Positions 26,683 through 57,500 of a stretch of 64,000 nt of DNA are shown here, piece after piece. Each line of letters starts with the position of its first letter. Position 1 is the first letter of the stretch. The position numbers were made by a program, and so were the translations under genes. The DNA comes from Siphonodentalium dalli (lineage: Eukaryota; Mollusca; Scaphopoda; Gadilida; Siphonodentaliidae): assembly GCA_032622095.1 (NCBI GenBank), contig CP136061.1, positions 23,934,991-23,998,990 on the forward strand, written 5' to 3'. The notes under the pieces are model-generated. The model saw nothing but the letters and a program-made list of their open reading frames with translations. It was not told where the DNA came from and searched no databases.

Positions 26683-28374
26683 TTACTTTGTTTTTCGGAA
26701 TTTTTTGACAACTGGAGCGAAATCGTCTTCACTGTCGATATCACTCCAAGAAACGAACCCTGGTCTCGTCACTTTCCTCACTGTTCTGGTTCTAGTTTGG
26801 GTCACAATCGGCGAAACAGGAGTGGATACAAGCACGAGTTCATCTGAGGATAGCTCATTGTCGATGTAGGTTACCGGACACGTATGTTTCCGTTTAGGGC
26901 GTTTCGTTTTTTGCGATTTGGCTTTCAGCCTAAGTTGCCGCCTAATTTCCGGAGGTGTTGTATTCGGCTCGGGCGCTAATGGTGAACTGCTGGATATCAA
27001 ATAATTACAGGATGGAGAGTTAATGGTTGCGATAGATGGATTTTCGGATGGTTTTTGTGCTGCTGTGGGCTGTGAAGCGAATTCAGGTATTACGAAAATT
27101 TGAGGAGTGGGAGGCGTGTTATTGAATAGCAATAACCGTTCTGGCGAATTTTCCAATGGCGGCATGCTCGAATCCGTTAAAATGGGGCTTGCTGCGATGG
27201 TAGCTGTTGGAATTGGTGATGGCGAATTATTAGGCTGATCTGCGTCACTTAGTGGAAGTGTATCGTGTTGGACATTTTCTTTGAATTTTGGAATGACAAT
27301 ACGTTTTGTGCAGTCAGATGGAAACCCACTCCATGTTTGAAAAATCGGATCTGGATACAGATATTTATATTCGTCGTAAAGGGTATACATTTCTCGCATG
27401 GCGTCGTAAAAGGAAGAATAGATGTTTTGATTTCGATGGTGATTTCTAAATATTAAAGAGCATAAGTGACTTTCGAATGTTTTACTGCTGCAACCAGCCA
27501 TCTTCCGGAAATGATTCTTCATGTGGGCCCAGGCGCCTTCGATGGTATTGGTGTCTACAGTAAGGACCTCTCCCGTTACTCTGTGGCGGTATTCGTGGCT
27601 GAACTCATATTGGTGGAATAAATTGAAATGGTTGAATCCCATATTGTTGAGTTTATTATACGGGAGCCAGCCATCGCTTATAATAGTCGATCCCTGCTCT
27701 ACGTACTTCTCTATCAATGGCAACAAAGTTTTTTGTGTTCGGTCGATAACTGGAAATATTATGTACGTATAAGTTTCGATTTCGACCATTCCAAAAATCC
27801 AAATTTTCTTCCCACGACGTTTCCCGCGTCCATACTTAGAAACTCGGCCGAATACGCTCTCATCAATTTGAATAGTGCCTTTAAGTTTAAAGTCGCCCCC
27901 ATTCAAAGTTTTGTATACGTATTCACTGTATACTTCTCTAACGAATGACGCCCAATCGACTGCTGTTTTCTTGTAATTAATTCCGGCGACGATAGCTGCT
28001 TGTTTCAAGTTCATATGGATAAGATAATCATTAATAAAGACAAAAATGTCCGGTATACTGATATGTGATCTGGAAAAGAAACTGTTTTTTCGAATTGATA
28101 TCTCGTGGTTTTTATTTTTTTTGCACCGCCATGTGTAGCCATCATTCAGTTTAGATTTCTTTTGGAGATTGCAATAGACGTTACACTTATCGCACTTCAT
28201 GTGTTGTCGGATGAAACCATTGCGACGCAACCAGCAGATCACATTAATGAAAGGCAAAGCGAACAGAGCAAAGAAATACCATGGATTGCTAAAATCGCGA
28301 ACATCGCAGCGTGATGGATTTTCTAATTTTTTTCGGAAATTTCCGACAGGTTTTTGTGGAATATTTCTCGGCAT
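26683..28374 (-). CDS. Merlin/ISXO2-like DDE transposase
   Basis: This is one uninterrupted frame of 563 codons from an ATG at 28374. Residues 61-84 hold a CDKC..C..C zinc-ribbon-like motif. The DDE nuclease core follows, with D171 in IQIDESVFG, D234 in IISDGWLPY and E279 in NTIEGAWAHMK. That spacing and context are those of ISXO2/IS1016-type enzymes, the Merlin superfamily in animals. Such enzymes cut and rejoin DNA at short terminal inverted repeats. Family members are usually about 300 residues, whereas this one has a further ~210 residues rich in Pro, Ser and Thr. It ends with an acidic/aromatic patch (WSDIDSEDDF) and a basic tail, possibly a nuclear or chromatin contact region. All catalytic residues are present and no breaks are seen, so it may be active or recently active. 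I could not define terminal repeats or a target duplication. Confidence 0.85.
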   Translation of the reverse strand: MPRNIPQKPVGNFRKKLENPSRCDVRDFSNPWYFFALFALPFINVICWLRRNGFIRQHMKCDKCNVYCNLQKKSKLNDGYTWRCKKNKNHEISIRKNSFFSRSHISIPDIFVFINDYLIHMNLKQAAIVAGINYKKTAVDWASFVREVYSEYVYKTLNGGDFKLKGTIQIDESVFGRVSKYGRGKRRGKKIWIFGMVEIETYTYIIFPVIDRTQKTLLPLIEKYVEQGSTIISDGWLPYNKLNNMGFNHFNLFHQYEFSHEYRHRVTGEVLTVDTNTIEGAWAHMKNHFRKMAGCSSKTFESHLCSLIFRNHHRNQNIYSSFYDAMREMYTLYDEYKYLYPDPIFQTWSGFPSDCTKRIVIPKFKENVQHDTLPLSDADQPNNSPSPIPTATIAASPILTDSSMPPLENSPERLLLFNNTPPTPQIFVIPEFASQPTAAQKPSENPSIATINSPSCNYLISSSSPLAPEPNTTPPEIRRQLRLKAKSQKTKRPKRKHTCPVTYIDNELSSDELVLVSTPVSPIVTQTRTRTVRKVTRPGFVSWSDIDSEDDFAPVVKKFRKTK

Positions 28375-39780: not shown

Positions 39781-39814
39781 CGAGATAACTCTAAATTTAA
39801 CATATGCACTATTG

Positions 39815-42800
39815 ATGGCTACCGATAGAATAACTCTTGGTGAGCTCCAGGGTGACAATTACAATTTCGCATCTATTTATAAGGGAGATGACTGCGATGA
39901 AAGCACCATTTATGACATAATTAATCATTCTTCAGAATATTACGCTCCATCAAAAATAAAAGAAAAAATACCATCTAATGGGAAGACGAAGACCTTTCTG
40001 GGTCTAAACTGTCGAAGTTTGAAGGCAAACTGGAACTCGTTTGTAGATCTTCTCTGCAACATTCAACCACAGTCATGCGGAAACATATTCGATGTTATCG
40101 CACTCTCCGAAGTCTTTAAAATTAGAGATACTCACTCATTAGAAGGGTACCACCCCTTTGAATATAAATCTAGACCAGATGATGACGATGGACACGGAGG
40201 CATCGGACTCTTTATAAAAAGCAATCTAAAATATAAACTGCGTCCTGATCTGTCGATATTTATTCCCCATGTAATCGAAACTTTGTTTGTAGAAATACAC
40301 ACAGGAAAGAATAAATCGTATGTCGTTGGATCCATATACATACCAATTAGTGCTCCATTAGCTGACATCTCGGAATTTTCGGACCAACTTGATAATATTA
40401 TCATAAAAATAAACGAATCTAATTCTAAAGCATATCTTATAGGTGACTACAACATTGACTTATTACACACAAATAATCATAATAAAACCAGTGAATTCGT
40501 TAGCAAAATGTTCGAACGAGGATTTATACCATTGATAACCAAACCAACGAGGGTAACTGAGTTCTCAGCAACTTTAATTGATCATATATACACAAATAAC
40601 ATATCAAACTGTAAATTCACCAGCGGAATAATACTAACAGACGTTTCCGATCACTTTGGTACGTTCCATATTGAGACCAATACTACATGCGAAACATTGT
40701 CAGAAAATAACTCAACGCTAATACCAACTCGGATAATGTCAGAAAACAACTTCAGAAAGTTTAAAAGTATACTAAACAGCTATTCGTTTGAAGAAGTATT
40801 CAGATGCCGAGATGTTAATCTCGCATATAACTCGTTCCTTAATATTTATTCACTTGCTCAAGAGGAGGCATTTCCCTTAATAACCAAAAAACTGCCAAAT
40901 AAATATATTAAACGCGAACCTTGGATGACAACGGGTCTACTAAAATCGTCAATAGAAAAACATAAAATATATATCAAAAAATTAAAAATTCCAACCAACC
41001 AAAACATTGACAAATATAAGAATTACTGTCGAATATACAATCAGCTAAGAAGAAAATGTAAAAACCAATATTACGACCATGCACTAAAAGAAAACCAATC
41101 TAACATGAGACGAACATGGTCAATATTGAAAGACGCATTAAAGATGTCTCATGACACACTTAAAATTCCAACTGAATTCCTAGTAAATGGAACCACGAAC
41201 ATAACCGACCCAATATCGATAGCATGTACTTTCAACAACTACTTTTCAGACATAGGTCGAAAAATTAATAGCTCAATTTCACCTCGACCAGGTTTGGACT
41301 ATACAACTTACTTATCGAATAACAACAAATCGAATTTCTTCATGTTTCCTACAAATTCAGATGAAGTGCTCAAGTTGAGTTCAAATTTATCCAGCAAGTC
41401 ATCTACGGACTTCAATAATGTTTCTGTAAAGTTAATGAAACGAACAATTAATGAAACCGTCGACCCGCTAACCCATATTTTCAATCTTTCCTTCACACAA
41501 GGTGTTGTACCAGAGCAAATGAAAATTTCAAAAATTGTGCCAATCTATAAAAACGGTGATCTCGATCGAATTGAGAACTACAGACCCATCAGTATTTTAC
41601 CAGCATTCTCCAAAATGCTGGAAAAACTAATGTATCAGCGGCTATCATCTTTTTTGACCAAGCATCATATACTACACGAAAACCAATATGGTTTTCGTAA
41701 AAACCACTCTACTGTCCACCCCCTGATCCACCTTCTAGACGAAGTTGCGAATAGCAACGACAAAAAAACCCGTGACTCAACATTGGCTGTCTTCATAGAC
41801 CTATCAAAGGCATTTGACACAATTAATCATGATATTTTACTCCACAAATTAAAGCACAATGGAATACGCGGCTTAGCATACGAATGGTTTAAAAGCTACC
41901 TATCGGAACGAAAACACTATGTTAATCTTTATGGAGTTAACTCTGGAATGTTGGCAATGAAATATGGTGTACCACAAGGGTACGTTCTTGGACCCTTGGT
42001 ATTTTTAGTTTACGTTAATGACATGCCGAACTGTACGTCCATTAAACTCCTCTCATTCGCCGATGACACTACTATGTGTACATCAGGAAATAACTGTGGC
42101 AAGATGCAGAATACAATTAACGGAGAACTAGAAAAACTTTTTAGATGGTGTTGCAGCAACAACCTATCAATTAATGAGTCTAAGAGTAAATACATGCTCA
42201 TACACCCCCAAAACAATGACTCAAAATGGAACGATATAAGGATACAACTGAATCGTAAAGAACTTACCCGTGTTGGAAACCAATACAAAGAAAAATCTCT
42301 TAAATTTCTCGGAGTGATCATAGACGAGAACCTCACATTCAAGTATCATATATCCATGATGACAAAAAAAAAATTCTCATGCCACATATTGCTTAAACAT
42401 GGCAAAACGATTTCTCCCCAAAAACGCACTCAAAACCCTTTATTTCGCTCTCATTCACAGTCATCTCATGTACGGCTTAATAATATGGGGCCATGCAACT
42501 ATAACAGGATCATTATTTAAGTTTCAAAAGAAAGCTATACGCATTATATGCAAGACGAAATATCGTAGCCACACCGAACCACTTTTTAAGAAGGAAAAGA
42601 TCCTCAAACTACACGATCTATATCATCTCCAAATCGCATTATTTATGTACAATTGGAAAAATAAAACTCTCCCATCATCATTCGAAAAAACATTCAAATA
42701 TACACCCATATCTACAACTAGACAAGCCGGAAGCTTGATGATGACAAAACCGAGAACAAATTTCTCACTAATACTTCCAAAACACGCTTTCCCCAATGTA

Positions 42801-42941
42801 TGGAACTGTTTGAACGCTTCGCTCAGAAATTCTCCAAATAAAACACAATTCAAAAAGTCTATCACCAATAATCTATTATCACAATATAGTAATGATACTA
42901 TATGTAAAATTCGAGAATGTAAATCGTGCAGAGTAACAACT
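39815..42941 (+). mobile_element. CR1/Jockey-group LINE, ORF2-type polyprotein with one frameshift
   Basis: The first frame runs from ATG 39815 to 42520. The second, overlapping frame continues from about 42370 to 42941. They are separated by one frameshift at an A9 run (42364-42372). An apurinic-type endonuclease comes first: LNCRSLKANW (~residue 67), ALSEV, GDYNID (210-215) and SDHFGTF. Reverse transcriptase follows: PIYKNGDLDRIENYRPIS, FIDLSKAFDTINH, GVPQGYVLGP (the usual S is Y) and the catalytic FADDT at 748-752. The C-terminal part has HSHLMYGLIIWG and VWNCLNASLRN. The enzyme nicks target DNA and copies its own RNA there. No gag-like ORF1 is seen upstream. Assignment within the CR1/L2/Jockey group is by motif only. 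Confidence 0.85.
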
Positions 42942-43211
42942 TGAAATCACTGACCTTGTTATTGACATGGCCCAACAAGTATGAGTCACCGAGGCACCCT
43001 CACCTTTTTGGGGCGATTTAATAATACGTATATTTTCATGCACGCGTACATAATTAGCTTAGCTCCAACATTAAACACATATTCGAATGTCAGACTGCCC
43101 TACAGGATAAGAAGATTTACCACTGACAAACCCTTCCACGCTCATCCTTGTTGTAAATACTCATTATTCAGCAATGAACGCTATCTCAATCATACATGTA
43201 ATGTTATATTA

Positions 43212-44646: not shown

Positions 44647-44660
44647 AAACATATTACTGC
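44647..44660. repeat. Left target-site duplication of the Tx1/L1-like LINE
   Basis: AAACATATTACTGC occurs here and again at 58443-58456, directly outside the two ends of the LINE. A perfect 14-base match at these positions is the expected result of target-primed insertion. Confidence 0.85.
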
Positions 44661-45452
44661 CTTTCATTTTTATTTTTCAATCTCCATGGGTCCACGAGTT
44701 CGAGGCTGGCGGCAAGATTTTTCAGTGCGTCTTTTGAGTTTGGATTATTAATGTTGTTGTAATTGAAGGTATCAAGTTCTTGATCTTGCGAGATGTTCCA
44801 GTCACCACATATGATTATTTGAGTATTACCGATGTCTAAAAGCAGTTTGTTGATATTTTTATAAAAAGTTGGATTATCGTCATTCGGGCCATAGATTGTC
44901 ACGAGACTGAATCTAATTTTTTCGATCGATATATCTAATATAATGTAGTTCCCTTCTGAATCCCGTGTCGTGTCATGTAGTTCATATTCGAAGTTATTAT
45001 TAAAGAGGAATGCCACCCCACGGGATTGAGACGAGTAAGAGGCCATTACTGTTTTGAATCCCCTTTCTGCTTCAATGTATTTTTCCATGGCTTTGGTGAA
45101 ATGAGTGTCCTGTAGACAATATATTGAAGCTTTTTTTATCTCGAAGGTGATGGAACAGATCTCGGCGTTTTTCGTTTTGGTTAAGCCCTCGGCAGTTTAG
45201 AGAAATTATTTCGATATTAGACATAGGAAAGTACAAGTACGCAGACGTATCGGCCAATCTCCATGCAACATATTATTAACAAGTGTCTATGTAATGCATA
45301 TTTTGAATGATGTGTATACACAATATAAATGGTACCAGTTTCAGCAGACACACTCTGTGGAGGGGGGTAGGTAATAACATATCTATGTACAAATGATATA
45401 ACAATACAAATAGTCCGGCACGTGGGCGCCATTTTTAATGGCCTCCACCCGC
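44661..45452 (-). pseudogene. Tx1/L1-like LINE, inverted 5' part with endonuclease domain
   Basis: On the minus strand the sequence encodes an apurinic-type endonuclease: IEIISLNCRGLNQ, RGVAFLFNN, TIYGPNDD, IICGDWN, then LVDPWRLKNKNER. One frameshift separates the first ~40 residues from the rest, at an A-run near 45130. The frame ends at 44661, exactly at the target duplication. The missing continuation (YTW..SPIKMARLDFF) is found in the opposite orientation from about 54600. The two pieces therefore belong to one LINE copy whose 5' part was inverted on insertion. Its 5' UTR continues beyond the MULE insertion at 54207-54597. It is inactive because of the inversion and frameshifts. Confidence 0.8.
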
Positions 45453-45458
45453 CCTTCA

Positions 45459-45916
45459 GGAATCACTGAACTAAATGTTTTCCCATAGGCGACAGTGTTA
45501 ACGTTTCAGCCATATTCACAGAATTTCAGCCTCCGAGCCATTCCAGTGATGTTTACCCAGTTAGACTGACACCAGATCATCCTGAAAATGCAAGAAAAAC
45601 CATAGGTCGAGTGTTTACTTTTCGAAATAATTCCTCAGGTGTAAGACAGGGTTATCCCGCAGCAAAATTTTACCTGGAAAAACCCAGAAATACCACAACT
45701 AGTTAAATAAATTTCACACTCACAAAAATCCTTTTCCCAATTAATTCACCAGTTTAAATTATTTAGATATGATGTACAAATCAAATAAACAAGATCTCAT
45801 CATTAAATAATGGATCACCTGTATGAGGTGAAGGCCATTCTTCAATTATCCTTCACCTTTAGGGTTCCACGGTGTATTCGATAGTGACTCTGGAACATAT
45901 TTAGCTCCCTGATTCC
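45459..45916. repeat. 458-bp terminal direct repeat, copy 1
   Basis: The repeat begins GGAATCACTGAACTAAATG and ends CATATTTAGCTCCCTGATTCC. The ends are imperfect inverted repeats of each other (20 of 25 positions). It recurs in the same orientation at 49600-50057 and 53743-54200 and looks identical in the lines compared. Outside it lies CCTTCAGG (45453-45460, overlapping the first GG), repeated after copy 3. Confidence 0.9.
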
Positions 45917-46614
45917 TATATATATGTACATATGCATTAAATGGCATTGCATACAGTATTTTATCCAGATATAGACCTTACTGAAACTAAAAATGAGTTC
46001 TAGCGGGCAGTATTGGTTCTATTTTTTCAATATGATGCCTCCCGAATATTAGTGTCAGTCATCAAAATAAACTTTTTTTTCTTTCTTTTTTTTCAATTTA
46101 ACTAGGTTTTTTATTTTGTACAATCTGAAATATGCGTTATTCCCATATACACCCTAATATTACTAAATTGAAGAGGAAATATTAAGCTACATTTTGAGAG
46201 GCATATCTTGACCAATTTTAACTCTTTTCCTTCAGAATTTGGCAATTTATAATAAAAATGGACCTAATTTAACAGAAAAATGGGAATTTAAAATACTTTA
46301 ATAGCAACATGAAGCAAGCTTCAGTCAATGGAAATATGTGAACAGCATGAAACTGTATTAGACTAAGCCTCAGGCATGAAATTGTATCAGATGGCATGGC
46401 ACACTCTGTTTAATTAGCACGAACAGTCCCAAGTTTGCATATGACTGTATCCTCAGGAGAAATAACAGGTTGTTCTGTATTACACAACAGTATCATATCC
46501 CAGCTCTTGTAAGCAAAGCAAATAATTCAACATCTCACTTTATGACTGGAATTTACTGAGACACTGACACAATAAACTCCTTGTTATAATTTGTGAGAAT
46601 TAATTGGCTCAATT

Positions 46615-46904
46615 ATGTCTAAAATCCCAAAATTACGCCGAATACAGCAATTAAAACAAACAGGTTTTTCGAGTTTAAGACAGCCTGATCACAAAAAAAT
46701 GCAGCCGGTGAATGATATTGTAATAGATAATGACAGTTGCAGATACGTAAGGGTACCAAAAGACAAATATGACATGGTTACCTCAGATATCGCCGCTCCA
46801 GTTCAACCAGCAGATAACCAAGAAACAACAGTAAAACTTCTACGACCTCTGATCAAGGAAACATCTGATGTCAAAGTTCTTGCTGGAAAGGAAACAGATA
46901 CATG
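46615..46904 (+). CDS. Mutator-like transposase, exon 1 (element copy 1)
   Basis: The ATG at 46615 opens 96 codons plus two bases, ending at donor ACATG|GTAAAT. Read through, the frame would stop at once (TGG TAA), and the exon joins the acceptor TTTTCAG at 47345 without loss of frame (TG+G = Trp). The N-terminus is basic (SKIPKLRRIQQLKQ), consistent with a nuclear-targeting or DNA-contact region. The rest has no recognisable domain. Confidence 0.75.
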
Positions 46905-47345
46905 GTAAATATACACATTCAACATTTACTTGCAATAAATTGTCTAAACTCATAATTAAAATTGAATAAATGATCCCCACTGTCACCATAAGAAGGATTA
47001 ACTCTCATTGATCTGCTTGAAAATGCTAATTAATGCATAAAAAGTAATAGGATTACCTCCCTTTGATTGAATTATCTCCCCAGAAGTGGCTTGCCCCCTA
47101 CATTCATATAGATATCACAGTATAATACAAACATCTTGTATAGTATACCACATCAGCTATCAGTGTCACTCAACAATTAAGAACTTAGCACAGTTACCCT
47201 CTCCCCCCCCCCCAACTACAAAATAATGGTCGAATATTTCTGTAATGCATGATATGCAAGATATAAACAACTGAATAGCCACAAATCAATTTAACAGATT
47301 TATCCCATTCATTTGGACTTGAATAGCTGTTTTTTTACTTTTCAG

Positions 47346-49104
47346 GGCTGAGAATGATACATATCGGCTTGTGCACGTCAAACGTATGACCGATATGTGG
47401 AATGACGTGTTTTCAGAGCATCGACACATCCATCCAAATTGTCTTGGGTATTTATCATATATTCCGGGTGCCGAAGACAGAAGAGGATTAGTCTGCAGAG
47501 AAAAAGTTGGCTGCAATATATGTAGCTACATTTCTAAGTACTTCATATTATACGATGAGATTGAAACTGGCAACAAAGGGCGGAAATCTGCCAGAATTAA
47601 TGAAGCCCTGCAGATTGCTCTTACACAGATGCCCATCGGAAATACCAATGTTCGAAAACTGTTGATGACGTGTAACATTCCACCACCGTCTGGGAGAGGC
47701 ATGCAAGCTGCATCAAACAAGGTGTGCAGACAAATAGTAGAGGTCAACACAGATGATTTGGGGCACAGACGTGAGGAACTGAAGGAAGTGAATAAATTGC
47801 GAAATGCGCAGAGTGATGTTATAAACATTGAATCGGATGGAATTTACTCAAATCCACTATATTCTGGAGTTGGACGAACACCATTCCAGCCTGCAACACA
47901 GTGTTCATACCTACATGTTGAAAACATGACCCACAAGAAACAAGTTATAGCACTCACAAACAAAAGCAAGCTGTGTGCAAACCATGGTAAACACAAAAAT
48001 GGAAATGACTGTTTGGCAAATTCTTCCAAATGCAGTGCTAATCTAAAATCAACTGACACAATTGGAAATGAGAAAGATTGGAACACTGAATGTTTAGAAC
48101 AGCTGAATTCCAGTGGTCTGTCTGTACATTACCTCACAACGGATCAAGACTCAAAACCATTCATGGGTGCAGAGCAGTTCTACGACTCCGGTAAATCATC
48201 CATCAAGCCTGAGCAACTGTATGACACTCGACATCTTACTGCAAGTATAAGGAAAAAAATAAAAAATTCTGTTCCTGTTATCGACATCATGCCCGGTAAA
48301 ACTAAAGCGGAGAGGAAGAAGGTATGCAATGGCTTCTCCGATGACTTAATGGCACGATGTAATAGCGAACTCAATAAGGCGCACAAACAATTTGGAGTGG
48401 ACACTACAAAGTTATTGTGTGCGCTGACATACATTGTTGACAGTATAGTGGACTGTTATCAGGGAAGACACAAACTGTGTGGACAATATTCGTTTGCCTG
48501 CAATTCAAAAGGGACTTGGCGCATAAAAAGCAGATACCTACAAAGCGATTTCAAAATAAATAGCTCCAAAGTATCCGAAGACAGACTCCGTGAGTGTGTG
48601 AACTGGCGACTTGGACGCGATGCAATGCTGAAAACAAAATTTGGGACGACAACCCAAAAATCTGAAGCTGTAAACAGAAGTATCAGGAGGTCTGTTCCGA
48701 GATCTACAACATTTTCTAGGAATTATACAGGGAGAGTTCACAGCGCGGTTCATTCAGTTAATAACGGTCCAGGCGAATCGATAGTCAAACTGTGCCAAAA
48801 GTGTTTGTGTCCTATATCACCCGGATCTCATTCTGCAAAACAGCTGAATCAATTGCAGAACAAATCGACACAAGATAAATTGAGACAAGAAACACCTGAC
48901 TTCAAAGCTAGGAGAAATAAACGTCGCTTCCAACTCTTCAAAAGTTATAAGGACATTCAGAATAATAAAGATGACACTTATGAGAAAGAAACATTACCGT
49001 TGAAAACACCAACCGAAATTAAAAATGCTCCCGCGGGTAAAAATAAACGAAAAATTAAACGTCGTCATGAGGACCACACATACAGTTTACGGAAAAAAAA
49101 CAAC
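47346..49104 (+). CDS. Mutator-like DDE transposase, exon 2 (element copy 1)
   Basis: With exon 1 this gives 683 codons, exactly in phase at a strong donor AAC|GTGAGT. Without splicing the frame runs on to 49233. The N-terminal part has VKRMTDMWNDV..H..H and CREKVGCNICSY, a zinc-ribbon-like pattern usual for this transposase group. Likely catalytic residues are D261 (NIESDGIYS), D363/D365 (LTTDQDSKPF) and E537 (TTTQKSEAVNRSI). The CQGRHKLCGQY-like histidine/cysteine block lies between the second D and E, and the tail is very basic. This order matches the invertebrate Mutator-like transposase domain (TQ--E--N motif). Its role is cutting and joining element ends. An in-phase acceptor CCTATAG|GAATCACTGAACTAA at the next terminal repeat would add only ESLN-stop. 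Confidence 0.8.
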
Positions 49105-49134
49105 GTGAGTAACATAATCTTACTTTTAAAATAT

Positions 49135-49515
49135 TTATATCATGCATGGTGGTTCGGCGTGGTGACCAAAACATGTTTTGAATCTCTTGCACGCGTTGCG
49201 CTTCATGTTGTCGCTCGTCGTCTCCAGCGTTAAATGGTTGACATTAATGCATAAAGTATTGTGACAGAGATGGCTCACTTCTTTGCCTATAAATTCAGGA
49301 TTAATAATGGTCCACTCTTTGGAAATCAGAAATGCCATTCGGTGTGCTAAATAAGCATCCGATCCTGGTAATGCTGGATCCAAAAGCATCCAGGACACTC
49401 GAACACGGCCATATCTCCCAGATTTTCCCTTCGTCCACACACGACACTCACTCTCTGGACTATTTTGCGATGAATCTAACATTTTCTTCCTTAAATCTTG
49501 CCAAAATGATGCCAT
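49135..49515 (-). CDS. I-PpoI-like His-Me finger endonuclease (element copy 1)
   Basis: The ATG at 49513-49515 opens 126 codons. The core matches the zinc-binding His-Me homing endonuclease family in order and spacing. C24 is in ECRVWT. H82, the expected general base, is in VSHLCHNTLC. C84, C89 and H94 would bind the first zinc. N103 is the expected metal-binding Asn. C109, C115, H118/119 and C124 form the second zinc site. The intervals H82-C84-C89-H94-N103-C109 equal those of I-PpoI residues 98-100-105-110-119-125. The length is close to a minimal catalytic domain. The gene is convergent with the transposase gene and overlaps its unspliced tail. A donor-like ATG|GTAAGT occurs about 45 bases upstream, so a 5' exon is possible. 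Such enzymes make specific double-strand breaks; the target is unknown. Confidence 0.8.
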   Translation of the reverse strand: MASFWQDLRKKMLDSSQNSPESECRVWTKGKSGRYGRVRVSWMLLDPALPGSDAYLAHRMAFLISKEWTIINPEFIGKEVSHLCHNTLCINVNHLTLETTSDNMKRNACKRFKTCFGHHAEPPCMI

Positions 49516-49599
49516 TATTACTTGTAAATCATAAAATATGAAACTAACAACTTACCATGGAGACACGTGAATTTTAAAATTTCGGCGGTTTTTCCTATA

Positions 49600-50057
49600 G
49601 GAATCACTGAACTAAATGTTTTCCCATAGGCGACAGTGTTAACGTTTCAGCCATATTCACAGAATTTCAGCCTCCGAGCCATTCCAGTGATGTTTACCCA
49701 GTTAGACTGACACCAGATCATCCTGAAAATGCAAGAAAAACCATAGGTCGAGTGTTTACTTTTCGAAATAATTCCTCAGGTGTAAGACAGGGTTATCCCG
49801 CAGCAAAATTTTACCTGGAAAAACCCAGAAATACCACAACTAGTTAAATAAATTTCACACTCACAAAAATCCTTTTCCCAATTAATTCACCAGTTTAAAT
49901 TATTTAGATATGATGTACAAATCAAATAAACAAGATCTCATCATTAAATAATGGATCACCTGTATGAGGTGAAGGCCATTCTTCAATTATCCTTCACCTT
50001 TAGGGTTCCACGGTGTATTCGATAGTGACTCTGGAACATATTTAGCTCCCTGATTCC
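49600..50057. repeat. 458-bp terminal direct repeat, copy 2 (shared, central)
   Basis: This copy is identical in layout to 45459-45916 and serves as right end of the first unit and left end of the second. Its immediate flanks are CCTATA on the left and TATATATG on the right. Confidence 0.9.
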
Positions 50058-50755
50058 TATATATATGTACATATGCATTAAATGGCATTGCATACAGTAT
50101 TTTATCCAGATATAGACCTTACTGAAACTAAAAATGAGTTCTAGCGGGCAGTATTGGTTCTATTTTTTCAATATGATGCCTCCCGAATATTAGTGTCAGT
50201 CATCAAAATAAACTTTTTTTTCTTTCTTTTTTTTCAATTTAACTAGGTTTTTTATTTTGTACAATCTGAAATATGCGTTATTCCCATATACACCCTAATA
50301 TTACTAAATTGAAGAGGAAATATTAAGCTACATTTTGAGAGGCATATCTTGACCAATTTTAACTCTTTTCCTTCAGAATTTGGCAATTTATAATAAAAAT
50401 GGACCTAATTTAACAGAAAAATGGGAATTTAAAATACTTTAATAGCAACATGAAGCAAGCTTCAGTCAATGGAAATATGTGAACAGCATGAAACTGTATT
50501 AGACTAAGCCTCAGGCATGAAATTGTATCAGATGGCATGGCACACTCTGTTTAATTAGCACAAACAGTCCCAAGTTTGCATATGACTGTATCCTCAGGAG
50601 AAATAACAGGTTGTTCTGTATTACACAACAGTATCATATCCCAGCTCTTGTAAGCAAAGCAAATAATTCAACATCTCACTTTATGACTGGAATTTACTGA
50701 GACACTGACACAATAAACTCCTTGTTATAATTTGTGAGAATTAATTGGCTCAATT

Positions 50756-51045
50756 ATGTCTAAAATCCCAAAATTACGCCGAATACAGCAATTAAAACAA
50801 ACAGGTTTTTCGAGTTTAAGACAGCCTGATCACAAAAAAATGCAGCCGGTGAATGATATTGTAATAGATAATGACAGTTGCAGATACGTAAGGGTACCAA
50901 AAGACAAATATGACATGGTTACCTCAGATATCGCCGCTCCAGTTCAACCAGCAGATAACCAAGAAACAACAGTAAAACTTCTACGACCTCTGATCAAGGA
51001 AACATCTGATGTCAAAGTTCTTGCTGGAAAGGAAACAGATACATG
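50756..51045 (+). CDS. Mutator-like transposase, exon 1 (element copy 2)
   Basis: The translation is identical to 46615-46904, offset by 4141 bases, with the same start and the same ACATG|GTAAAT donor. Confidence 0.75.
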
Positions 51046-51488
51046 GTAAATATACACATTCAACATTTACTTGCAATAAATTGTCTAAACTCATAATTAA
51101 AATTGAATAAATGATCCCCACTGTCACCATAAGAAGGATTAACTCTCATTGATCTGCTTGAAAATGCTAATTAATGCATAAAAAGTAATAGGATTACCTC
51201 CCTTTGATTGAATTATCTCCCCAGAAGTGGCTTGCCCCCTACATTCATATAGATATCACAGTATAATACAAACATCTTGTATAGTATACCACATCAGCTA
51301 TCAGTGTCACTCAACAATTAAGAACTTAGCACAGTTACCCTCTCCCCCCCCCCCCCAACTACAAAATAATGGTCGAATATTTCTGTAATGCATGATATGC
51401 AAGATATAAACAACTGAATAGCCACAAATCAATTTAACAGATTTATCCCATTCATTTGGACTTGAATAGCTGTTTTTTTACTTTTCAG

Positions 51489-53247
51489 GGCTGAGAATGA
51501 TACATATCGGCTTGTGCACGTCAAACGTATGACCGATATGTGGAATGACGTGTTTTCAGAGCATCGACACATCCATCCAAATTGTCTTGGGTATTTATCA
51601 TATATTCCGGGTGCCGAAGACAGAAGAGGATTAGTCTGCAGAGAAAAAGTTGGCTGCAATATATGTAGCTACATTTCTAAGTACTTCATATTATACGATG
51701 AGATTGAAACTGGCAACAAAGGGCGGAAATCTGCCAGAATTAATGAAGCCCTGCAGATTGCTCTTACACAGATGCCCATCGGAAATACCAATGTTCGAAA
51801 ACTGTTGATGACGTGTAACATTCCACCACCGTCTGGGAGAGGCATGCAAGCTGCATCAAACAAGGTGTGCAGACAAATAGTAGAGGTCAACACAGATGAT
51901 TTGGGGCACAGACGTGAGGAACTGAAGGAAGTGAATAAATTGCGAAATGCGCAGAGTGATGTTATAAACATTGAATCGGATGGAATTTACTCAAATCCAC
52001 TATATTCTGGAGTTGGACGAACACCATTCCAGCCTGCAACACAGTGTTCATACCTACATGTTGAAAACATGACCCACAAGAAACAAGTTATAGCACTCAC
52101 AAACAAAAGCAAGCTGTGTGCAAACCATGGTAAACACAAAAATGGAAATGACTGTTTGGCAAATTCTTCCAAATGCAGTGCTAATCTAAAATCAACTGAC
52201 ACAATTGGAAATGAGAAAGATTGGAACACTGAATGTTTAGAACAGCTGAATTCCAGTGGTCTGTCTGTACATTACCTCACAACGGATCAAGACTCAAAAC
52301 CATTCATGGGTGCAGAGCAGTTCTACGACTCCGGTAAATCATCCATCAAGCCTGAGCAACTGTATGACACTCGACATCTTACTGCAAGTATAAGGAAAAA
52401 AATAAAAAATTCTGTTCCTGTTATCGACATCATGCCCGGTAAAACTAAAGCGGAGAGGAAGAAGGTATGCAATGGCTTCTCCGATGACTTAATGGCACGA
52501 TGTAATAGCGAACTCAATAAGGCGCACAAACAATTTGGAGTGGACACTACAAAGTTATTGTGTGCGCTGACATACATTGTTGACAGTATAGTGGACTGTT
52601 ATCAGGGAAGACACAAACTGTGTGGACAATATTCGTTTGCCTGCAATTCAAAAGGGACTTGGCGCATAAAAAGCAGATACCTACAAAGCGATTTCAAAAT
52701 AAATAGCTCCAAAGTATCCGAAGACAGACTCCGTGAGTGTGTGAACTGGCGACTTGGACGCGATGCAATGCTGAAAACAAAATTTGGGACGACAACCCAA
52801 AAATCTGAAGCTGTAAACAGAAGTATCAGGAGGTCTGTTCCGAGATCTACAACATTTTCTAGGAATTATACAGGGAGAGTTCACAGCGCGGTTCATTCAG
52901 TTAATAACGGTCCAGGCGAATCGATAGTCAAACTGTGCCAAAAGTGTTTGTGTCCTATATCACCCGGATCTCATTCTGCAAAACAGCTGAATCAATTGCA
53001 GAACAAATCGACACAAGATAAATTGAGACAAGAAACACCTGACTTCAAAGCTAGGAGAAATAAACGTCGCTTCCAACTCTTCAAAAGTTATAAGGACATT
53101 CAGAATAATAAAGATGACACTTATGAGAAAGAAACATTACCGTTGAAAACACCAACCGAAATTAAAAATGCTCCCGCGGGTAAAAATAAACGAAAAATTA
53201 AACGTCGTCATGAGGACCACACATACAGTTTACGGAAAAAAAACAAC
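51489..53247 (+). CDS. Mutator-like DDE transposase, exon 2 (element copy 2)
   Basis: The translation is identical to 47346-49104, offset by 4143 bases because the upstream poly-C tract in the intron is two bases longer. The acceptor TTTTCAG, the catalytic D, D and E motifs and the terminal AAC|GTGAGT donor are all preserved. Both copies are therefore potentially functional. Confidence 0.8.
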
Positions 53248-53277
53248 GTGAGTAACATAATCTTACTTTTAAAATAT

Positions 53278-53658
53278 TTATATCATGCATGGTGGTTCGG
53301 CGTGGTGACCAAAACATGTTTTGAATCTCTTGCACGCGTTGCGCTTCATGTTGTCGCTCGTCGTCTCCAGCGTTAAATGGTTGACATTAATGCATAAAGT
53401 ATTGTGACAGAGATGGCTCACTTCTTTGCCTATAAATTCAGGATTAATAATGGTCCACTCTTTGGAAATCAGAAATGCCATTCGGTGTGCTAAATAAGCA
53501 TCCGATCCTGGTAATGCTGGATCCAAAAGCATCCAGGACACTCGAACACGGCCATATCTCCCAGATTTTCCCTTCGTCCACACACGACACTCACTCTCTG
53601 GACTATTTTGCGATGAATCTAACATTTTCTTCCTTAAATCTTGCCAAAATGATGCCAT
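53278..53658 (-). CDS. I-PpoI-like His-Me finger endonuclease (element copy 2)
   Basis: The 126-residue frame is identical to that at 49135-49515, offset by 4143 bases. All zinc and catalytic residues are retained. Confidence 0.8.
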   Translation of the reverse strand: MASFWQDLRKKMLDSSQNSPESECRVWTKGKSGRYGRVRVSWMLLDPALPGSDAYLAHRMAFLISKEWTIINPEFIGKEVSHLCHNTLCINVNHLTLETTSDNMKRNACKRFKTCFGHHAEPPCMI

Positions 53659-53742
53659 TATTACTTGTAAATCATAAAATATGAAACTAACAACTTACCA
53701 TGGAGACACGTGAATTTTAAAATTTCGGCGGTTTTTCCTATA

Positions 53743-54200
53743 GGAATCACTGAACTAAATGTTTTCCCATAGGCGACAGTGTTAACGTTTCAGCCATATT
53801 CACAGAATTTCAGCCTCCGAGCCATTCCAGTGATGTTTACCCAGTTAGACTGACACCAGATCATCCTGAAAATGCAAGAAAAACCATAGGTCGAGTGTTT
53901 ACTTTTCGAAATAATTCCTCAGGTGTAAGACAGGGTTATCCCGCAGCAAAATTTTACCTGGAAAAACCCAGAAATACCACAACTAGTTAAATAAATTTCA
54001 CACTCACAAAAATCCTTTTCCCAATTAATTCACCAGTTTAAATTATTTAGATATGATGTACAAATCAAATAAACAAGATCTCATCATTAAATAATGGATC
54101 ACCTGTATGAGGTGAAGGCCATTCTTCAATTATCCTTCACCTTTAGGGTTCCACGGTGTATTCGATAGTGACTCTGGAACATATTTAGCTCCCTGATTCC
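53743..54200. repeat. 458-bp terminal direct repeat, copy 3
   Basis: This is the right-hand outer repeat. It ends CTGATTCC and is followed by TTCAGG, so that CCTTCAGG (54199-54206) duplicates the sequence at 45453-45460. Confidence 0.9.
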
Positions 54201-54206
54201 TTCAGG

Positions 54207-54597: not shown

Positions 54598-57500
54598 ATT
54601 GAAAAATAAAATGAAAGACGATATACTTGGCGAAGAAAATCCCCAATTAAAATGGCAAGGTTGGACTTTTTTATGATCTCTTCAGATCTTTTAAGTTTAC
54701 TCGAAACTGACCCAGACATTTTACCTGCTTATAGATCGGACCACTCCATGATTAATCTCACACTCAAAATTAATAACTCGGAAAGGGGACCCGGATTTTG
54801 GAAATTTAATAACTCCCTACTGTACGAAAAAGAATATGCATCAACTGTAAAAACAATCATACATGAGAATAAAGTTAGATATGGCATCACACAGCCAGAT
54901 GGCACCCCTGTCGAAACCCCCCCCCCCCCCCCACGATCACTAAACAACTATTCATTGACGCAATGCTACTAGACATTCGTGGTGCGACAATTCAGTTCTC
55001 ATCCAAACGCAAACAAGAATCGAAGCTCAGAGAAAATAAGCTCATTTGTGATCGAAAATAAATTGAATTGACAACAGTCTCGAAGAAAAAAGTTCCCTTT
55101 TACGAAAACTTGACGAATTAGATTCAAAAATTCAAAATATGAGAAAAGATAATATTCGCGGAGCCATGATTCGGTCACGTGCTCAATGGGTCGAACAAGG
55201 CGAGAAACCTACTAAATACTTTCTTAATTTAGAAAAAAGGAATTATGTATCTAAGACAATAACACCCCTTAACGATAACTCAGGCAACACCTTATCGTCC
55301 CAGACTGAAATCATCAATGAGGCGCGTAGCTTTTACAAACATCTTTACTCACACCGACCGGTCCATAAGCAACAAATCAACGAAATCATCCGTAACGAAA
55401 ATGTCCCCAGGCTATCCCCCGAACAATCTGAAAGCTTAGAAGGCACCCTAACCCTTAATGAACTAACTTCTGCGTTGAAACGAACAAAGAACGGCAAAAG
55501 TCCTGGTCCAGATGGCTATACAGTAGAATTCTTCAAATTCTTTTGGGTAGATGTAGGTCCCATTCTCTTGGAATCCCTAAATGAATCAATTACAACCGGG
55601 GAGCTGTCCATTACACAAAAACAGGCTTGATCACTCTTATTCCAAAGAAAGACAAAGACAGGTAACTCCTAAAAAACTGGCGCCCAATCTCACTGTTGAA
55701 TGTGACATATAAACTAGCATCAGCTTGCATAGCAGATAGACTGAAAACAGTTTTATCGGTAATAATAGACCCAGATCAAACAGGCTTCCTCTCAAATAAA
55801 TTTATTGGAGACAACACCAGACTCATATACGACATTCTTCAAAAAAACAGAGCAGGAATCAAAACCAGGAATGCTACTATTAATAGATTTTGAAAAGGCC
55901 TTCGACTCTGTATCATGGTCATTCATACATGAGTGCCTAGATTTTTTTAATTTTGGTGAATCAATCAAGTCTTGGATATCCATTTTCTACAATAATATAT
56001 CCTCTTCAATTCTCATAAACGGGCATATTTCCCAAAGTTTCAATCTATTCAGAGGCTGTCGGCAGGGTGATCCTATTTCACCTTATATTTTTTTAATTTG
56101 TGCAGAAATTCTAGGTATCCTAATGAGACAAAACACTAAAATTAAAGGAATAATCCTCGGCGGTTTAGAATATAAAATAACACAGTACGCAGACGATACA
56201 ACGCTGACCTCGATGGCAGTCAGGAAAGTCTATTAGAATCTTATAGTACATTAGACAAATTCGCCTCGGTGTCAGGACTGAATATCAACCACAGTAAATG
56301 TCAGGCATCGTGGATTGGGGCTCTGAAGGGAAATACACACAATATATGCCCTGAACTACATGTACAATTCACCAACTCCTTTACTCTATTAGGGATCAAA
56401 TTTAATACCAACCTTGATAAAATATTAGATAACTACGACTTAAAGCTATCCGATATTAAGACCCTGATAAAATCATGGGGACATAGGCTATCGACTCCTT
56501 TGGGTAGAATCACGGTAATAAAATCTCTTATATTGCCAAAAATAACCCACCTATTTCAGTCTCTTCCCAACCCGACAGCATCATTTTTTTTAAATTTAAA
56601 AACGATTCTGTTTAACTTTGTTTGGGGAGGAAAACGAGACAGAGTTAAAAGAACCCAACTCTGCCAAAATTTCGAAGCAGGGGGCCTGAAAATGGTTGAT
56701 GTCGAAGCTTTCAATTCATCTATGAAGATAACATGGATCCGCCGAATTATACTGAAACGGCACCCCCTTGTAGATTTACCAATAGACGAAGATCCCCTCT
56801 TTCTTGCATATGGAGGCCAATACTTAAAGCTATATTCTGCTCGCATTCAGAATCCTTTCTGGAGAGATGTCCTTATCGCCTGGTCTGAGCTATTGGTAGC
56901 AGAAAAAGATACCATACCCTTACTGTCTTCAATTTTATGTAATAATGAACATTTTAAAATAAATGGTTCGACACTAAATATACGGACATGGAGATAACAT
57001 GGAATCATTTTCGTTAACGATCTTTTCCAGACTGATGGCACATTTCACACTAGACATTCCCTCTTATCGACATTTAATGTCCGAACAGATTTCATCACCT
57101 TGCATGCGCTTCTTCGACAAGCAGAAAAAAGTGTCAAAACCCTTAAACAACCTAATAATCCCCTGGTGGCACCAATCCTCCCAAGTAATTACATATTATT
57201 ATTACGCAACGCGAAAGGTGGGCGCGATTTTTACAACTGTCTAGTGTCGAGAAACAAGAAACTGGACGTGTGCTCGAAATGGGAATCCAAACTAGGCGAG
57301 TACAACATTCCATGGGATATTTGCTTCAAGGCCCCATTCCAGTCCACGTCTGACACTAAATTATATTACACTGGCTTCAATTTCGTATAAACTGTAGAAA
57401 ATTATACCTACCAATTTTAGTTTTTAATAATCAAAATTAAATAATTTGTAATATTATCCGTTCGATTGCTCATGTTTCCAAGCGTGATTGTCTTTTTTGT

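Follow-up and report, generated by a model that had tools for sequence, protein, structure and literature searches.

We analyzed a 64,000-nucleotide stretch of the genome of the scaphopod Siphonodentalium dalli (GCA_032622095.1, contig CP136061.1, positions 23,934,991 to 23,998,990 of the forward strand), which is referred to as the window throughout. The element at window positions 45459-54200 is almost certainly a two-unit copy of KolobokP, a transposon described by Kojima & Bao (2022, Mobile DNA 13:24; PMC9587614), its class being assigned by match to the published architecture. Identification and anatomy taken together are very likely to be right. An earlier note on this DNA had described a Mutator-like transposon that also encodes an I-PpoI-like endonuclease, bounded by an 8-base target duplication, and had considered the pairing undescribed. 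The pairing of the two genes is real and the element type had already been described, while the class and the target duplication are corrected here.

The element has the structure (LTDR-INT)2-LTDR, with three long terminal direct repeats (LTDRs) and two nearly identical interiors (INTs). LTDR1 (45459-45916), LTDR2 (49600-50057, common to both units) and LTDR3 (53743-54200), all on the plus strand, have the 458 bp reported earlier, and for the second and third the listed identity with the first is 100%. The earlier description has to be amended in that these are direct repeats, each with its own terminal inverted repeats (TIRs): every LTDR starts with GGAATCACTGAACTAAAT and finishes with ATTTAGCTCCCTGATTCC, imperfect 18-bp inverted ends (GG...CC) that match at 15 of 18 positions when counted by eye. 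INT1 (45917-49599) and INT2 (50058-53742), also on the plus strand, both start and end with TATA; a comparison of the two shows a single substitution and, in a C run, a 2-base change. Each interior carries a transposase gene on the plus strand and an I-PpoI-like nuclease gene on the minus strand, which overlap tail to tail (at 49135-49233 in the first unit). In the first unit, transposase exon 1 (46615-46904) is joined to exon 2 (47346-49233, with the PF20700 match) across a putative GT-AG intron (46905-47345), and the nuclease gene lies at 49135-49515; the second copies lie at 50756-51045, 51489-53376 and 53278-53658, respectively. In both units the nuclease and the spliced transposase have open frames, and each gene yields the same protein from either copy. 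The outer flanks carry the target-site duplication (TSD) TTCA, at 45455-45458 on the left and 54201-54204 on the right, with no strand assigned.

In the KolobokP paper, the element is an INT between LTDRs of about 450 or 660 bp, which have TIRs of their own and 5'-RR..YY-3' ends and are called unlike those of any other DNA transposon (PMC9587614). It encodes a DDD/E transposase with a C/DxxH motif and zinc-finger cysteines and, downstream on the complementary strand, an I-PpoI-like His-Me nuclease; it also occurs as solo LTDRs and as (LTDR-INT)n-LTDR multimers, and its TSDs of 3-5 bp show no strong preference (PMC9587614). The published set comprises 228 families, rich in bivalves and known from seven animal phyla. 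All but one of the KolobokP traits that we listed from this paper were checked, and each of those checked was found here. The window element is alike in its approximately 450-bp LTDR with own TIRs, its RR..YY ends, its gene content and orientation and its multimeric form, and nothing essential sets the window family apart beyond a preference among its target sites. The transposase-nuclease pairing was thus already published in 2022, together with a dual-mechanism proposal near the one in the earlier note. What stands of the two-nuclease mobility system suggested there is a mobile element with two DNA-cutting enzymes, of which the nuclease is a regular part; its placement in Mutator does not stand. 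According to the same paper, KolobokE, KolobokD and KolobokH likewise combine a DDE transposase with an accessory enzyme, differing in the kind of enzyme (a lambda-exonuclease-like nuclease, a DEDDh nuclease and a RecQ helicase; PMC9587614).

Another explanation was a MuDR element that captured a homing endonuclease by chance and generated an 8-bp target duplication. PF20700 indeed bears the name Mutator-like transposase, which the window family shares with MuDR/Mutator, and the 8-base sequence CCTTCAGG is found on either side of the window copy. Mutator elements have TSDs of 8-11 bp and usually long TIRs, and neither trait is seen in the window family. We compared a first TSD set of 11 insertions, namely the window element, nine sister loci of the same family (L009-L017) and the neighbouring solo LTDR L011b. 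Ends of the GG..CC type bound all 11, and in nine the 4 bp on either side are the same (6 is an alternative reading for L017, which lies in a TA run), whereas the 8-base duplication fits only one, the window element itself. It fits there because the left flank has CC and the right flank GG by chance: the CC and GG added in CCTTCAGG each belong to an LTDR end on one side and match the flank by chance on the other. The 8-bp part of the MuDR explanation is refuted by these flanks, and the window element has a 4-bp duplication, TTCA.

A second TSD set consisted of 17 further short LTDR stretches. Seven solo LTDRs, two of them with one terminal base altered, have 4-bp duplications (TATC, TGTA, TCTT, ACTA, TCTA, TATA and AACA). 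L048 and L049 were taken as the two ends of one insertion, with TAAA on either side, 17 kb apart, and L054 and L055 are likewise two ends of one insertion; the other six stretches (L047, L050, L051, L052, L053 and L056) adjoin internal sequence and cannot be paired. An exact 4-bp duplication was observed in 17 of the 20 same-family insertions with both ends seen, and 13 of those 17 have the form TNNA, which is the preference mentioned above. Three insertions speak against the 4-bp assignment in having no exact duplication: L010 (TAAA/TATA), L011b (TATA/TTTA) and L054/L055 (TATA/AATA). With its 4-bp TSD, its GG..CC ends and LTDRs that carry their own TIRs, the element is of Kolobok type and fits KolobokP, and the Mutator class is abandoned. 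Long direct terminal repeats in a tandem array could also be taken for a long terminal repeat (LTR) retrotransposon or a segmental tandem duplication. The LTR reading is refuted by the genes of the interior, which encode a DDE transposase and a nuclease. In addition, 4-bp duplications accompany monomers, solo repeats and the window dimer alike, at different loci; we regard mistaken identity of this kind as wholly improbable.

Two observations concern LTDR ends. At L011 (7466-8381), a monomer and an 83%-similar solo LTDR lie 4 bp (TTTA) apart, and the abutted ends form a near-palindromic junction. The idea that the inner end of the INT mimics an LTDR end was tried by eye; it held for the window family (TTCCTATAGGAA junction) and partly for L019, and failed for L022 and L023.

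The 620-aa exon 2 frame of the transposase matches PF20700 with 1.8e-46, in the profile check that the earlier note had proposed. Its DDE residues are D156, D258 and E432 (620-aa numbering), with DxxH at 285-288. In an alignment of the window protein with 31 of 95 homologues, D156, D258, H288, E432, C202, C221, C362, C370 and C377 are invariant in all 32 sequences. A spliced transposase, intact in both copies, had been proposed before and is retained, but the present splice gives 725 residues instead of 683, and the antisense overlap of its frame with the nuclease gene (49135-49233) makes the 3' end uncertain. Named eukaryotic homologues come from Mytilus, Pinctada, Mercenaria and Saccostrea, genera that are found in Table 1 of PMC9587614. 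For 20 of the 95 homologues (P0041-P0135), the longest contig measures 4.06-4.45 kb, near one LTDR plus INT, a length that could reflect either circles or the collapse of repeats. Homologue P0109 is named from a metagenome-assembled genome of a bacterial symbiont and is probably host contamination.

The 126-aa minus-strand frame matches PF05551 with 3.2e-11 and I-PpoI with 1.5e-4 by phmmer, or 2e-10 with a 16-sequence profile, so that the intact I-PpoI-like nuclease read on the opposite strand in both copies was confirmed. A protein search with the lone nuclease returned no homologues, and one with the 16-sequence alignment returned 40 proteins. Among the window nuclease and 30 of these 40, S81, H82, C84, H94, E98, N103 and C109 are invariant (31/31), and C24 (29), C89 (30), C115 (28), H118 (27) and C124 (30) nearly so. 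Conserved residues correspond to S97, H98, H110, E114 and N119 of I-PpoI as named in PMC9587614. The catalytic His and Asn and the eight zinc-binding His/Cys typical of His-Cys box enzymes were all found. Which of the conserved His/Cys residues are zinc ligands is presumed from the alignment. The enzyme shares with I-PpoI the catalytic His and Asn, the conserved Ser and Glu and the His/Cys zinc set, and differs in size (126 aa versus 163 aa in the PDB chain) and in being encoded by a transposon instead of a group I intron.

An alignment-based fold of the nuclease reached a predicted local distance difference test score (pLDDT) of 92.1, and its first four Foldseek matches are I-PpoI; a single-sequence fold was poor (pLDDT 54). 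Scores are less favorable than ranks, since the best Foldseek E is 7.2e-3 with a template modeling (TM) score of 0.41 and no match reaches 0.001 or below. Judged by sequence family, the likeness to I-PpoI is clear, and judged by structural score it is modest. The next structural matches after I-PpoI are the DNA-binding domains of nuclear factor I (NFI) transcription factors. Viral contigs scanned with the transposase and nuclease alignments gave 19 and 15 pattern matches, respectively, and no confirmed relative among them.

To see how regularly the two genes occur together, we turned to the genome assembly (2.23 Gb in nine contigs). The PF05551 search gave 149 matches among the best 150 of 390 candidates, which were scored, and counts from it are lower bounds. 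From these matches we chose L009-L017, in which an LTDR, both genes and a second LTDR are found in 9/9, the right LTDR being interrupted in L013. The nuclease is open in eight of the nine, with one stop in L010, and the transposase is broken in L010, L013 and L017 (frame) and L014 (exon 1). Because these loci had been selected for presence of the nuclease, a search from the LTDR side was added, in which the best 40 of 2093 candidates were scored and 42 matches listed. The 40 main matches consist of 17 singles, 10 pairs and the window triple. Among the matches listed, 10 of the 11 same-family pairs or triples enclose a full-length nuclease; nine of the 11, the window and eight of L009-L017, were previously known to hold it. 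Of the remaining two, L057 retains a transposase and a nuclease region of full length, and in L058 an internal deletion has taken away the transposase's 3' part along with most of the nuclease. Of the 42 LTDR matches listed, eleven reach the top score, being of full length and without any difference from the window LTDR (100% identity); they are spread over six loci and indicate recent movement.

In the opposite direction, we examined 25 long nuclease loci (L009-L033), nine of the window family and the rest hand-picked from the nuclease matches. A profile search found the transposase at 21 of them and not at L028, L030, L032 or L033. L028, L032 and L033 have 0.4-0.7 kb in common with the L024/L025 KolobokP family and L030 has about 0.36 kb in common with L026, and we infer that the four are KolobokP remnants. 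Since 21 of 25 loci hold the transposase and the other four share KolobokP sequence, the nuclease is a regular component of the transposon; the earlier note had asked whether both genes always co-occur within the repeats. A nuclease lying mainly outside such elements, which that note took as the sign of a chance insertion, was not what we found. A full-length nuclease is also present in diverged families, and the same architecture has been published as KolobokP (PMC9587614). Chance capture by a MuDR element is accordingly very improbable.

Some of these loci have further features. L028 and L033 share a repeat of about 6 kb that is 97% identical and has an open nuclease frame, with a ratio of nonsynonymous to synonymous change (dN/dS) of 0.45 between their nucleases, and the profile search detected no transposase at either. 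A Pfam scan of seven frames from L028, L030 and L033 named one zinc finger (L028) and nothing else. L030 (C3:298491500-298499500) shows truncated nuclease frames, tandem units of about 2.7 kb and 79-bp minisatellites, and its L026-related sequence recurs in each unit.

Fifty of the 149 nuclease matches fall into 14 same-strand clusters of two to nine with a spacing below 7 kb. These clusters, defined by spacing, and the seven solo LTDRs with TSDs represent the multimer and solo forms known from KolobokP. The cluster on C6, where four nuclease matches lie, is bordered by TAGA at either outer end (the two ends alone were read), which fits in-place growth of one insertion. The cluster on C8 has at least nine nucleases at a spacing of 4032-4043 bp and extends beyond the right end of the stretch read. 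Its inner piece (L029) contains two open nucleases and one complete transposase frame that lacks about 0.45 kb, including the first catalytic Asp; all nine C8 nucleases are without internal stops. Equal spacing suggests the same deletion in the other units, and transposase for the array could come from other copies. The view that this array, with its 4.04-kb period, has no LTDRs proved wrong: an LTDR could be identified, and it is the transposase that has been shortened. Most clusters are defined by spacing alone, and one of the 14 (C3:298.49 Mb) consists of truncated nuclease copies among minisatellites. The C2 cluster, eight nucleases at a spacing of exactly 4495 bp, has unmatched outer flanks (TTAT versus TAAA), at odds with simple in-place growth.

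The DDE transposase would bind LTDR ends and move either a complete LTDR-INT-LTDR unit or an LTDR on its own, inserting it with a 4-bp stagger and a preference for TNNA. Most likely it is the transposase that moves LTDR-bounded units and leaves the 4-bp duplications behind as it does so. Unequal crossover between LTDRs most likely produced the window dimer at its present site, with no further insertion, because there is a single duplication at the outer flanks and both units have TATA inner junctions. A nuclease cut at an LTDR, within one, or where two LTDR ends abut would probably raise crossover repair and yield more LTDR-INT units. We adopt this model of Kojima & Bao, in which the nuclease may induce unequal crossover, tentatively and at slightly less than even chances. 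Selection on related nucleases and the C8 array, with open nucleases beside a defective transposase, are compatible with the model and do not show it.

If the nuclease were instead a neutral or tolerated passenger, the transposase alone would move KolobokP and multimers would come from ordinary unequal crossover, for which the homology of a 458-bp LTDR may suffice. We consider this a serious but doubtful alternative. It fits the KolobokP families without detectable nuclease (PMC9587614) and the lack of a candidate cut site: a search for semi-palindromes (8-bp arms, at most one mismatch) found none inside the window LTDR, and none common to different families in nine LTDRs of several families, the former result also telling against the crossover model. 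The catalytic residues, invariant across 31 sequences, argue the other way, as do the nine scored C8 nucleases, all open despite a transposase without its first catalytic Asp (one unit read). Substitution rates also bear on the matter. Of 105 nuclease pairs, 18 were rated (dS between 0 and 1.5). In other KolobokP families, dN/dS is 0.30 for L018/L019, 0.35 for L020/L021, 0.31 for L021/L022 and 0.24 for L023/L026, and 0.27-0.30 for L024 or L025 against L028, L032 and L033. These values of about 0.3 suggest purifying selection on the nuclease in those related families, the window's family not being among them. That the window's own nuclease is in none of the 18 rated pairs weakens the argument, as do the other eight pairs, which range from 0.45 to 0.65; some of these pairs show few changes or are close to saturation, and three compare the nuclease-only loci L028, L032 and L033 with one another.

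A bolder form of the crossover model makes the nuclease an in-place multiplication engine independent of its own transposase, so that arrays of the C8 type would grow like homing-driven satellites. It would cut at abutted or LTDR-bordering ends (CC-TNNA-GG type), and repair would add LTDR-INT units; we consider it unlikely. The genome may serve as a test bed, since it combines solo LTDRs, KolobokP copies that are nearly identical and clusters with as many as nine nuclease units, and the published idea of a homing enzyme that multiplies a transposon by induced unequal crossover would become testable with the sequence of one species.

Other putative mobile sequences lie in the window. A 563-aa open frame on the minus strand (26683-28374) looks, by its motif, like a Merlin/ISXO2-type DDE transposase, and frames of 902 and 181 aa on the plus strand (39812-42944) have the look of what we take to be a nearly complete non-LTR retrotransposon with endonuclease and reverse transcriptase. 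The KolobokP dimer is flanked by presumed fragments similar to long interspersed nuclear elements (LINEs) in opposite orientation, at 44654-45257 on the minus strand and 54652-56997 on the plus strand, which are possibly one inverted (twin-primed) insertion interrupted by the dimer.

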